A stretch of DNA of 60,331 nucleotides. It comes from Marmoricola sp. Its GTDB lineage: Bacteria > Actinomycetota > Actinomycetes > Propionibacteriales > Nocardioidaceae. The stretch lies in the NCBI GenBank assembly GCA_025965195.1, contig JAOPXK010000051.1:1-60331 (forward strand), read 5' to 3'. The position numbers were made by a program, and so were the translations under genes. Below are positions 28,328 through 31,704 of this stretch, piece after piece (position 1 is the stretch's first letter; each line of letters opens with the position of its first letter). The notes under the pieces are model-generated. The model had not been told where the DNA came from, made no database searches, and saw only the letters and a list, made by a program, of their open reading frames with translations.

Positions 28328-28846
28328 GTGAGTCGAACTATCCGCGTCCAGACCCGCAAGTGGCCAGACGATCCGCACTGGGAGTTCGACGCGATCCGGC
28401 TAGGCGTCGACGGGCACGGGCACTGGGTCGGGCTGTTGAAGGGCACCTGGCTCTCGCGCCCGGGTGCCGGGTTCCACGCCCAGTGCGACCAGGTCGTGCT
28501 GATCCCGTACGACGAGTGGTGGGTGGCCACCTTCTACGGCGACGACGACGATCGGCCGGTCGACATCTACGTCGACATTGCGACGCCTGCGCAGTGGGAC
28601 GAGCCCAGTGGAGTCGTGAAGGCAGTCGATCTGGACCTCGATGTCATCCGCGGTCCCAGTGGCCGCGTCTGGGTCGACGACGAAGATGAGTTCGCAGACC
28701 ACCAGGTCCAGCTCGGCTATCCCACCGACGTCATCGACGCTGCGATGCAGAGCTGCGAGACCGTGCTGGCCGCGGTCACCGACCGTGCCACTCCGTTCGA
28801 TGAAACCACCTCGGCCGGATGGCTGGCTCGACTCCGAAGTCTCTGA
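28328..28846 (+). CDS. DUF402 family protein (FomD-like phosphatase fold)
   Basis: A 172-residue soluble protein with the DUF402 pattern: WEFDAIRLGVDGHGHWVGLL, IPYDEWWVATFYGDD, VDIYVDIATPAQWDE, then VDLDLDVIRGPSGRVWVDDEDEF with the acidic cluster that binds divalent metal in the family. Members hydrolyse nucleoside di- or triphosphates or CMP-linked intermediates. GTG 28328 is the first start in frame. The gene stands alone between repeat copy 2 and the secreted peptidase gene. Confidence 0.85.
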   Translation: MSRTIRVQTRKWPDDPHWEFDAIRLGVDGHGHWVGLLKGTWLSRPGAGFHAQCDQVVLIPYDEWWVATFYGDDDDRPVDIYVDIATPAQWDEPSGVVKAVDLDLDVIRGPSGRVWVDDEDEFADHQVQLGYPTDVIDAAMQSCETVLAAVTDRATPFDETTSAGWLARLRSL

Positions 28847-28852
28847 CAAAGT

Positions 28853-30253
28853 GTGCAAGTGGCCCCCACTTCGCGCAGTCGCCGCCTCCGCCTCTGGGCG
28901 GCGGCCCTCACTGCCGGAACCCTCGTGCTCGCGGTGCCCGCCTCAGCAGCGGACGTGGATGCGGGACCGCTGACTTCGAGAGACTCGCTGTTTCCACACC
29001 AGGGCAATGGTGGTTACAACGCCCAGAGCTACCACCTCGACCTGACCTACGTCCGACACGGTCATGCCCTCAAGGGCCTGACGACGATGACGGCCCGGGC
29101 CCGGCAGGACCTGACGAGCTTCGGGCTCGACCTCGAAGGCCTGAACGTCTCAAGAGTCTGGGTGAACGGCGTCCGCGCTTCGTTCCACCGTGGCTCCGAC
29201 AAGCTCGTCGTCACCCCGGTCCGGGAGCTGAGGACCGGATCGATCTTCACCACCCGCATCCAGTACGCCGGCGTGCCTCACACCCATGTCGATCCCGACG
29301 GCTCCTCCGAAGGCTGGATCCCGACCGCTGACGGAGTCGTCGCGCTCAACGAACCGGTCGGCGCGATGACCTGGTTCCCGAACAACAACACTCCGCGCGA
29401 CAAGGCTCGCTACCGGTTCACCATCCATGCTCCCAAGCGCCTCGAAGTGGCCTCGAACGGACGGCTGGTCCGACGTACGACCAGGCACGGGATCGGCACC
29501 TGGCACTATGTGATGGCCAAGCCGATGGCGTCCTACCTCGCATTCCTCGCGATCGGACAGTTCAAGATCCATCACGGCAGGACCTCCGACGGAATCCGAC
29601 TGCTGTCCTTCACGGACCCGAAGGTCCCCGCACCGACCGCGGCCTTGAGGAAGTTACCCGGGATCCTGCACTGGCTGCAGACCCAGTTCGGGCCCTACCC
29701 GTTCGCTGACGCGGGCTTCGTCGACGACAAGATCGGCGTCGACTACGCGCTGGAGACCCAGACCCGGCCGACCTTCGACGGCACGGTCCCGATCACGGAC
29801 CTGGTCCACGAGCTCGCTCACCAGTGGTTCGGCGACGCGGTCACCCCTGCCGATTGGGGCGACATCTGGCTCAACGAGGGCTTCGCGACGTACACGGAAT
29901 GGCTCTGGGCCGCCCGCACCGGCGAGAGCACCGAAGACCAGTTCACCGAGTTGCTCGCCGCGCACCCCGCCGGGGACCCGTTCTGGCAGACCCCGCCCCA
30001 GGATCTTGGCGACCCGGCCAACCTCTTCGGCAATGCGGTCTACGAACGTGGCGCGATGACCCTCGAGGCGTTGCGCGAGACGATCGGTGACGTGGCCTTC
30101 AACACCACGATCCGGCAGTGGTACGTCGGACATCGCGGCCAGTCGACCAGCACCGCCGAGTTCATCGACCTCGCCGAGCAGACCTCCGGCCAGGATCTGA
30201 CCAGCTTCTTCCACAACTGGCTCGACCAGCCAACCCGACCGACCGGCTGGTAA
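28853..30253 (+). CDS. Secreted M1 family zinc metallopeptidase
   Basis: A 466-residue exported peptidase. RSRRLRLWAAALTAGTLVLA followed by VPASAADV forms a Sec signal peptide. The zinc site is HELAH at residues 319-323 with the third ligand E342 in WLNEGFATY, the exact HExxH-x18-E spacing of M1 enzymes. The GAMEN-equivalent appears as VDYALETQTRP. It is compact compared with aminopeptidase N because the C-terminal helical domain is short. The start is GTG 28853 (GTG 28859 is also possible). Its stop at 30251-30253 is followed 14 bp later by the first motif of the repeat array. Confidence 0.9.
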   Translation: MQVAPTSRSRRLRLWAAALTAGTLVLAVPASAADVDAGPLTSRDSLFPHQGNGGYNAQSYHLDLTYVRHGHALKGLTTMTARARQDLTSFGLDLEGLNVSRVWVNGVRASFHRGSDKLVVTPVRELRTGSIFTTRIQYAGVPHTHVDPDGSSEGWIPTADGVVALNEPVGAMTWFPNNNTPRDKARYRFTIHAPKRLEVASNGRLVRRTTRHGIGTWHYVMAKPMASYLAFLAIGQFKIHHGRTSDGIRLLSFTDPKVPAPTAALRKLPGILHWLQTQFGPYPFADAGFVDDKIGVDYALETQTRPTFDGTVPITDLVHELAHQWFGDAVTPADWGDIWLNEGFATYTEWLWAARTGESTEDQFTELLAAHPAGDPFWQTPPQDLGDPANLFGNAVYERGAMTLEALRETIGDVAFNTTIRQWYVGHRGQSTSTAEFIDLAEQTSGQDLTSFFHNWLDQPTRPTGW

Positions 30254-30267
30254 CGCAAGACCACTGA

Positions 30268-30543
30268 CGCCGATCCGGCCCATACGCGCACCTGTGTGTC
30301 GCTGACCCGGCGCGCCCGTGCAGTTCAAGGTCGCTGACCCGGCGCGCGTGTGCGCGTTCGGATCGTCGACCCGGCTCACCGGAGCAGGTCGTGATGCGCG
30401 TATATGCCGGGTCAGCGTCAAAACCTGCACCTCCGCGCCGGGTCAGCGTGAGAAGGGCGCGCGTACGCGCCGGGTCAGCGTCAAAACCTGCACCTCCGAG
30501 CCGGGTCAGCGCCCAGAAGCTGCACACAAGAGCCGGGTCAGCG
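30268..30543. repeat. Array of nine 12-bp motifs at 31-32 bp steps with dyad symmetry
   Basis: The gap between the M1 peptidase and the ligase gene is filled by copies of CGCTGACCCGGC. In this orientation they start at 30268 (10/12 match), 30300, 30332 and 30364 (10/12). As the reverse complement GCCGGGTCAGCG they start at 30406, 30437, 30469, 30500 and 30532, all exact. Steps are 32, 32, 32, 42, 31, 32, 31, 32. Motif pairs are symmetric about 30390, so the region is a long imperfect palindrome built of tandem units. The 19-20 bp between motifs are partly conserved (AA-x-CTGCAC in several; two are nearly identical). The last motif lies just before the ligase ribosome site. Confidence 0.9.
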
Positions 30544-30552
30544 GAAGGAGGG

Positions 30553-31704
30553 ATGTGGAACCATGCCTGCGTGGGCATCGACTTCGCACGGTCGAACGGA
30601 CCGACCCTGGGTGTGGAGTGGGAGTTTGCCCTCGTCGACAAGCAGTCCCGTGATCTCGTCAACGCCGCCTCGGAGCTGTTCGACCTCGTCAGGGAACGAC
30701 ACGGCCCGCAGCCGCGCCTGCACAAGGAACTGCTGCGGAACACCGTCGAGCTCACCACCGGTATCTGTCGTACGACGGACCAGGCGATCACCGAGCTGAC
30801 CGACATGATCAACATCGTCAGACCGGCCGCCGACGAGCTCGGCGTGGACCTGTACAGCGCCGGCACGCATCCGTTCGCGAACTGGTCAGCCCAGCAGCTG
30901 ACGGACGGGCACCGCTACGAGGAGCTGATCGCGCGGACCCAGTGGTGGGGACGCCAGATGCTGATCTGGGGAGTACACGTGCATGTCGGCATCAGCAGCG
31001 ACCATGTCATCCCGATCGTGTCCTCGTTGCTCAACCAGTACCCGCACCTGCTCGCACTGTCGGCGTCCTCGCCGATCTGGGCCGGCACCGACACGGGCTA
31101 TGCGAGCAACCGGGCGATGATGTTCCAGCAGCTGCCGACGGCCGGGCTGCCGTTCCAGTTCCGCACCTGGCCGGAGTTCGAGAGCTATGCGCACGACCTG
31201 CTGACGACCGGCGTGATCGAGGAGATCAACGAGATCCGGTGGGACATCCGGCCGTCGCCGACGCTCGGCACGGTCGAGATCCGGATCTGTGACGGCGTCT
31301 CGACGGTCGATGAGATGCGGGCGCTGGTCGCGCTGACCCACTGCCTGGTGGTCGACCTCGACGACCGGCTGACCCGCGGCGAGGAACTGCCCACGATGCC
31401 GCCGTGGCACGTTCAGGAGAACAAGTGGCGTGCTGCCCGCTACGGCCTGGACGCATGGATCATCCTCGATGAGAAGTCCAATGAGCGCCTCATCCTCGAC
31501 GACCTGCACGACCTCCTCGAACAGCTGGCCCCGACCGCCCGGCGCCTCGAGTGCGAGACCGAGCTCGACCTGGTCGTGGAGATAGCGCGACGTGGCGCGT
31601 CCTACCAGCGCCAGCGACTCGTCGCGAAGCGGACCAACGACGACATGGTCGCGGTGGTGGACTCGATCGTGCAGGAGCTACTCCCCGGGTCCGGAGTCCC
31701 CTAG
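30553..31704 (+). CDS. Carboxylate-amine ligase, YbdK/GCS2 family
   Basis: A protein of about 383 residues in the glutamate-cysteine ligase type 2 family. TLGVEWEFALVDKQSRDLV is the family opening, followed by NTVELTTGICRTTDQAI, LYSAGTHPFANWSAQQL, HVHVGISSDHVIPI and SNRAMMFQQLPTAGLPF, with VEIRICDGVSTVDEM near the C terminus. Such enzymes have weak ATP-dependent glutamate-cysteine ligase activity; the true substrate is unclear. ATG 30553 has GGAGGG directly before it with almost no spacing, while GTG 30571 leaves a spacing of about 19 nt, so the start is open. The 3' end overlaps the FUSC gene by 27 bp, convergent. Confidence 0.85.
   Translation: MWNHACVGIDFARSNGPTLGVEWEFALVDKQSRDLVNAASELFDLVRERHGPQPRLHKELLRNTVELTTGICRTTDQAITELTDMINIVRPAADELGVDLYSAGTHPFANWSAQQLTDGHRYEELIARTQWWGRQMLIWGVHVHVGISSDHVIPIVSSLLNQYPHLLALSASSPIWAGTDTGYASNRAMMFQQLPTAGLPFQFRTWPEFESYAHDLLTTGVIEEINEIRWDIRPSPTLGTVEIRICDGVSTVDEMRALVALTHCLVVDLDDRLTRGEELPTMPPWHVQENKWRAARYGLDAWIILDEKSNERLILDDLHDLLEQLAPTARRLECETELDLVVEIARRGASYQRQRLVAKRTNDDMVAVVDSIVQELLPGSGVP

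Follow-up and report, generated by a model that had tools for sequence, protein, structure and literature searches.

In the window, a stretch of 60,331 nucleotides from a Marmoricola sp. genome, two genes of the plus strand are separated by a gap (30254..30552) that is filled by a repeat array from the upstream stop codon, ending at 30253, to the downstream ATG at 30553. The upstream gene (28853..30253) is M1-type aminopeptidase-like and contains an HELAHQWFGD motif, from which we take its product to be an M1-type aminopeptidase; the downstream gene (30553..31704) presumably encodes a glutamate-cysteine-ligase-like protein. The array is composed of nine copies of the 12-bp core GCCGGGTCAGCG, four in reverse followed by five in forward orientation, 31-32 bp apart. 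On the minus strand, the outermost left-arm core 4 (30268..30279, CGCCGATCCGGC, two mismatches), core 3 (30300..30311, exact), core 2 (30332..30343, exact) and the inner core 1 (30364..30375, CGTCGACCCGGC, two mismatches) lead to a centre of 30 bp (30376..30405), beyond which right-arm cores 1 to 5, all exact, lie on the plus strand at 30406..30417, 30437..30448, 30469..30480, 30500..30511 and 30532..30543. Seven of the nine cores are therefore exact, and successive starts are 32, 32, 32, 42, 31, 32, 31 and 32 bp apart, the central 42 bp corresponding to about four helical turns. The last core adjoins the ribosome site of the ligase gene and is followed by GAAGGAGGG and then by the ATG, and the mirrored pairs are centred between 30389.5 and 30390.5, i.e., about position 30390. 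The nine copies, their spacing, their mirror symmetry, the last copy at the ribosome site and the filled gap had been described in the initial annotation and are borne out, as is its remark that the two halves can pair (30254-30552, z = -7.65 folded as RNA and -5.87 as DNA). When at most one mismatch is allowed, the window contains GCCGGGTCAGCG 12 times where 1.85 matches would be expected; all seven exact ones lie inside the array gap and the five remaining ones outside it.

The spaced array is absent 5' of the ligase gene in all 14 relatives with a full flank, and in three genomes (G010, G001 and G008) a gene like window 28328-28846 lies directly upstream of the ligase gene, so the peptidase gene and the window array look lineage-specific. 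The peptidase gene (within window 28328-30253) is likely an insertion between the 28328 gene and the ligase gene; its closest relative in the genus has 46% identity, and relatives at or below this value were left out as orthologues. In another genome (G011, locus L200), direct repeats of GAGTCCGGCCTTCTGGTCCGGC and a second, different repeat occupy the convergent gap 3' of the ligase gene.

The core is dispersed far beyond this locus. The window's own genome (G000, 3.97 Mb in 200 contigs) has 73 exact copies of GCCGGGTCAGCG, compared with six of the reversed control, and 25 phased pairs (gap 18-21 bp) compared with none. The outcome named as refuting, a common word placed at random, is thus not what is seen. 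In the 24 genomes of the genus, a general form of the core, CGCYGANNNGNC, forms 610 phased pairs against 23 for the reversed control, some of the listed matches resembling coding sequence; G000 has 52 pairs and G002 has 51, and several genomes are near background (G001 with two against two, G021 with one and G022 with none). Exact GCCGGGTCAGCG pairs are confined to three of the 24, namely G000, G011 and G020. With 52 general-core pairs scattered over G000, the suggestion of an iteron or a segregation or partition site, which would be a single locus beside replication or partition genes, is not supported. A CRISPR array was likewise rejected, the spacers having a common unit consensus and recurring within arms, and the window has no match in Rfam.

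The G000 array survey covered 20 stretches around exact matches, a part of all match places, and together with the window it yields 13 gene-less two-armed arrays, besides gene-bearing and one-armed ones. A scan of named-species genomes added 103 stretches, mainly from Nocardioides and Nocardioidaceae, of which 25 were set aside, 21 by spacing or as a single pair and four from a Myxococcota MAG. Nineteen of these have spacings of 9-16, 20 or about 30 bp (Acuticoccus, Micromonospora, Kitasatospora and others, three being Nocardioides), and two, L031 and L103, have one pair each. The Myxococcota MAG (L065, L079, L090 and L127) contains direct repeats of 32-33 bp that include GCCGGGTCAGCG and form no mirror arms. 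Together with those from G000 and 20 from G002, G007 and G008, the remaining 78 stretches yield 130 arrays at 115 loci (66 two-armed, 33 with the reverse arm only and 31 with the forward arm only). Some of these arrays run into contig ends or are interrupted by a gene, and near-identical genomes make them partly non-independent. In every one of the 66 two-armed arrays, the reverse arm lies on the left and the forward arm on the right.

Within arms, the spacing is 31 bp in 151 of 156 cases in N. speluncae and 32 bp in 294 of 327 in the other genomes. The script chained copies 30-33 or 61-65 bp apart, so that these figures establish how sharp the peak is and leave other spacings aside; when no spacing limit is set, the listing again gives 31 and 32 bp. 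The distance across the centre is 41 bp in 17 of the 21 N. speluncae arrays, and the 45 distances from other genomes cluster near 20, 31-33, 40-42, 51-55, 62-64 and 74-75 bp, with outliers that include 24, 80, 89 and 97 bp. Their periodicity (Rayleigh R = 0.64 at 10.5 bp, 0.67 at 10.75 bp and 0.68 at 11 bp) shows that centre distances step by about one helical turn.

Relative entropy, computed over one unit per arm, divides the N. speluncae unit into a conserved block of about 23 bp (gcGTcAAcACGG/GCCGGGTCaGCG) and about eight free bases; in G000, the part of the unit upstream of the core is much weaker than in N. speluncae. In each of the three species compared, the consensus of the unit is asymmetric, and a near-palindromic core, GCCGASTCGGCG, occurs at L239, L241, L244 and L303. 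The free bases agree at 0.815 between neighbouring units of one arm and at 0.23-0.35 between arms or arrays. As this agreement is confined to the arm, arms appear to grow by local duplication with block and phase maintained, and, since the free parts differ between arrays, no solitary array is a recent copy of another.

In these soil bacteria, the arrays are preferentially located between the ends of convergent genes. With genes called by a rough GC3-based script, and with the right-hand distance of the window array set by hand, 50 of the 105 arrays with both neighbours called lie between convergent genes, 49 between co-directional and six between divergent ones. When both neighbours are near and at least 150 aa long, 24 of 39 arrays are convergent compared with 18 of 119 control gene pairs, which were drawn from G000 stretches only (P = 7e-8), and none compared with 20 of 119 is divergent. 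The window array, between co-directional neighbours, is an exception to this preference. Array ends that face a gene 3' end lie within -6 to +3 bp of the stop codon in 41 of 63 cases, and in 16 array ends the TGA stop is supplied by CGCTGA of the outer core. At one locus of G002 (L219), an arm pair brackets a called gene of 288 codons that looks like an ordinary host gene and not like the nuclease gene described below.

One convergent orthologous gap, whose flanking genes we take to be mshC and PAC2, can be compared across 22 of the 24 genus genomes, in which both genes are present. Six of the 22 have unit-bearing DNA and 81-343 bp between the stop codons, with full two-armed arrays in G002 and G008 and fewer units in G010, G014, G015 and G003. 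In 15, the stops are -4 to 38 bp apart, and in G009 the gap measures 110 bp and has no clear unit. The initial annotation had considered an expanded repeat derived from a mobile palindrome; such empty and filled orthologous sites support, in outline, derivation from a mobile element, but the unit is not an expanded palindrome.

In some cases, the arms leave about 1 kb between them, and a gene occupies this interval. Pfam scans of two of the encoded products place AbiEi_4 above the cut-off in one and just below it in the other; the former also matches AbiEi_1, MTES_1575 (PF18741) and DUF559 (PF04480), all below the cut-off. PADLOC models of AbiEi match all four members scanned, and Pfam and NCBIfam scans of two partner proteins found no Y1 transposase. 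Among the aligned proteins of a 41-protein set, E209, D241, E252, G255, H259, D267 and R270 are invariant. From the sub-threshold Pfam matches in one of two proteins and these invariant residues, the C-terminal part is predicted to be a Vsr-like PD-(D/E)xK nuclease. Searches for a sequence match in the PDB and for a match in PHROGs were negative. A homologue at E 1e-10 or better is encoded in all 24 genus genomes, and at 1e-30 in 49 of 296 sampled genomes of the class; none was found in the genome of the Myxococcota MAG. Viruses as carriers find no support, since none of 23 IMG/VR stretches that match a pattern encodes a relative; plasmids gave seven records, all below 60% identity, and phages one partial record. 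In G002, an array-rich genome, an in-frame stop divides the homologue (L178, L227) into a 218-aa and a 95-aa piece, which speaks against a present-day need for the gene. Upstream of the family genes, a CTGTGGA motif, often within CCTGTGGATnA and then like part of a DnaA box, lies 53-103 bp from the matched start (e.g., L302, L165 and L166); it is present there, in the orientation of the gene, in 35 of 64 family genes compared with 0 of 25 control genes, and in two of eight distant homologues.

The link between gene and array was assessed by searching 350 bp on each side of the gene for a 10-base word that recurs periodically and is mirrored. Such arrays flank 36 of 42 close homologues (20 of 23 in the genus, 7 of 10 in other genera of the family and 9 of 9 in named Nocardioides), 14 of 22 intermediate homologues, none of eight distant ones and two of 48 control loci, and both positive controls are the PAC2 loci of G002 and G008, where real arrays lie. 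The negative close homologues are L152, L169, L191, L239, L245 and L246, and at L152 short arms are visible by motif. Four loci were excluded for short flanks (L156, L289, L292 and L298), and L159, L161, L181, L184, L187, L251, L259, L304, L310 and L314-L316 were left out of the test. When flanks are swapped between loci, 96 of 150 combinations are still positive owing to a family-wide general core, GNCNNNTCRGCG, and the test therefore does not demonstrate gene-specific pairing.

By eye, solitary arrays have the unit that surrounds a gene of the same genome in G000, G002, G007, G008, G011 and N. speluncae, and several genomes have more than one gene and unit. In all three genomes with exact GCCGGGTCAGCG pairs, GCCGGGTCRGCG surrounds a family gene, and related cores lie at a family gene in G021 and G003, which have no such exact pairs. 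General-core pairs have a median of 24 in the 17 genomes with a close homologue, defined here as 245 bits or more, against 6 in the seven without one (P = 0.003), which still have 0-11 pairs. Mapped onto a 41-protein tree, unit types assigned by eye (three rows unlabelled) change 14 times compared with 24.1 times after shuffling, and none of 200 shuffles is as low. Protein and unit thus co-diverge, and lineages differ in their unit. Eighteen of the 42 gene-bearing loci, with several unit types, lie in one host neighbourhood, presumably around RbpA and 6-phosphogluconolactonase; as gene-bearing elements occupy few host sites, vertical inheritance fits better than frequent jumping.

Other units accompany other members of the gene family. 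A second homologue in G000 (L154) is flanked by arrays of a 22-bp unit, GTTGASTTGGNCC, which recurs at four other places in that genome (the family lies at C54:48960, C62:41106, C111:21336, C120:38728 and C124:7478; L317, L320, L322, L326 and L329-L332). The 22-bp unit is found once in G023, where a family gene lies beside such copies, and as eight pairs in G018, where neither of the two homologues examined is flanked by it; it is absent from the remaining 21 of the 24 genus genomes. Five homologues from other parts of the class (L248, L254, L256, L257 and L260) have mirrored arrays of very different units with TGATCATGCA or TGATCTTGCA, spaced by about 22 to 53 bp.

These observations can be compared with REPIN-RAYT systems, in which a gene is flanked by inverted repeats, cognate repeats are dispersed in intergenic 3' regions, repeats and gene co-diverge, and the gene is vertically inherited and unseen on plasmids (PMC2817692, PMC8049555, PMC3733652). 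As in REPIN-RAYT and BIME, the partner gene described here is flanked by its repeats in inverted orientation, and its protein and repeats co-diverge, so that anatomy and evolution match closely. In contrast, an AbiEi winged helix joined to a predicted Vsr-like nuclease takes the place of the Y1 HUH transposase, and the unit is asymmetric and set in phased direct arrays, unlike the palindromic hairpin headed by GTAG or GGAG. As the partner protein is unrelated and the unit forms no hairpin, the family is not a member of REPIN-RAYT.

The ends of Tn7 and Mu also consist of repeated transposase sites, and resemble the arrays in having several phased sites per end in inverted orientation; here, however, no DDE transposase is seen between the arms and most copies are gene-less. 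The partner shares its N-terminal and middle regions, which match AbiEi models, with AbiEi and Rv2827c, antitoxins of the type IV toxin-antitoxin system AbiE, and differs from them in the added C-terminal nuclease-like part and in having dispersed arrays rather than one promoter. AbiEi of Streptococcus agalactiae and Rv2827c bind paired inverted repeats of 23 bp that are 3 or 13 bp apart (PMC7319586), and the N. speluncae block of about 23 bp has this length. The C-terminal part of one of the two proteins resembles the REase_MTES_1575/DUF559 group of Vsr-like nucleases through the sub-threshold PF18741 and PF04480 matches; REase_MTES_1575 was named in the context of a large HEPN/helicase/transglutaminase fusion, and repeat arrays go unmentioned in that part of the source (PMC3710099).

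On balance, we favour, with modest confidence, the reading that places the window array, as a solitary copy that holds no gene, in a family of repeat-plus-nuclease elements working like REPIN-RAYT with an unrelated enzyme. It builds on the observed family, the orientation and phase of its copies, the gene-array link, the units common to gene-flanking and solitary arrays of one genome and the presence or absence of arrays at one host site. A full element would consist of two mirror-image arms of the 31-32 bp unit, and its autonomous form would carry between the arms the AbiEi-type winged-helix gene with the predicted nuclease part. The protein would bind each unit of about 23 bp, with copies aligned in a stack along a single helix face, and the arms would be opposed to one another over the centre. 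Binding is likely, as the N. speluncae block has the length of the AbiEi/Rv2827c operators and the centre varies in steps of similar size. The protein-binding phased array envisaged in the initial annotation thus gains indirect support from the helical centre steps, the conserved block set against about eight free bases and the linked AbiEi-type gene.

The invariant residues of the predicted nuclease part suggest that cutting matters. We infer that the nuclease drives the spread of the arrays: in the least certain steps of the scheme, it would cut in or close to the ends of arrays or the empty junctions between genes, and repair that copies from an array already present would insert, replace or lengthen arrays. 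Selection would let copies survive mainly between convergent stop codons, where insertion does least harm. The split G002 homologue, the G018 units with no flanked homologue and the sub-threshold Pfam matches weigh against this explanation. Further points against it are the six close homologues with a negative array result, the 0-11 pairs in genomes that have no close homologue, the weak upstream half of the block in G000, the differing free bases of solitary arrays, the few host sites of gene-bearing elements and the co-directional neighbours of the window array.

The main rival, to which we give a small but real share of probability, holds that the arrays are sites that serve the host: a domesticated AbiEi-nuclease would dock on them, and they would act as roadblocks to transcription, as points where supercoils between convergent genes are relieved or pinned, or as organisers of the chromosome. 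Core and phase persist as the remaining bases of the unit drift, so the sites seem constrained, and the preference for convergent gaps, the avoidance of divergent ones and the residence of the gene in one host neighbourhood at 18 of 42 loci would suit such a role. On the other hand, the array is dispensable at the mshC/PAC2 site, where 15 of 22 species lack it; the unit sequence varies between species; and invariance of the predicted catalytic residues would be superfluous in a protein that does nothing but dock.

Rather improbable is a role in defence or self-recognition, in which the arrays would retain, tame or detect a nuclease directed against invading DNA, much as in AbiEi autoregulation, where the protein occupies 23-bp inverted repeats in the promoter of its own gene (PMC7319586). 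The PADLOC matches in all four members scanned agree with it. Autoregulation, however, has no need of arrays that lie far from the gene and number dozens per genome in some species. In addition, the recurring neighbours of gene-bearing elements look like housekeeping genes, which is what we take them to be.

Slightly less probable again is an RNA or cruciform element, in which the mirror arms would form a long hairpin acting as a two-way terminator or RNA stabiliser. The window array folds far better than its shuffles, and arrays are located at gene 3' ends. Yet a loop would not be expected to have centre distances in helical steps, Rfam gives no match, and no intrinsic terminator (GC hairpin plus T tract) is found in 30100-30700. 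Moreover, nested left and right spacers have no clear extra complementarity: in N. speluncae, it is 0.568 for nested spacers, 0.529 for non-nested ones and 0.609 for spacers of other arrays (0.279, 0.228 and 0.352 for the eight free nucleotides), and in G000 it is 0.450, 0.497 and 0.488. This lack of a clear excess in complementarity between mirrored partners makes a hairpin role unlikely. Of the long hairpin or cruciform proposed earlier, the pairing of the halves stands, and it looks like a by-product of an array whose unit is no palindrome. The last alternative is that of variable-number tandem repeats of the usual kind, or of a common word clustered by chance. Local duplication clearly adds units, but this alternative is refuted to near certainty by the uniform mirror orientation, the genome-wide spread, the phase and the gene link.

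The repeat-plus-nuclease reading can be extended to a broader and more tentative proposal, which we consider plausible but somewhat short of probable: an independent actinobacterial counterpart of REPIN-RAYT, in which an antitoxin-derived binder fused to a Vsr-like nuclease would write, spread and rewrite helically phased mirror arrays in convergent gaps. The specificity of the binder would evolve in step with the dozens of sites in each genome, and related pairs of protein and array, with other units and with periods of 22, 26 and 53 bp, would exist across the class. In the open-licence literature, no description of such an array-plus-AbiEi-nuclease system was found, and the system is provisionally regarded as new. 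It suggests a testable role for an AbiEi-nuclease family of unknown function, as well as a second, non-homologous way for bacteria to hold a co-evolving enzyme and its dispersed repeats. The unit variants matched to protein variants offer a set for learning the DNA code of the AbiEi winged helix, and with empty and filled orthologous sites at hand, the question of whether such repeats are selfish or useful becomes directly testable.
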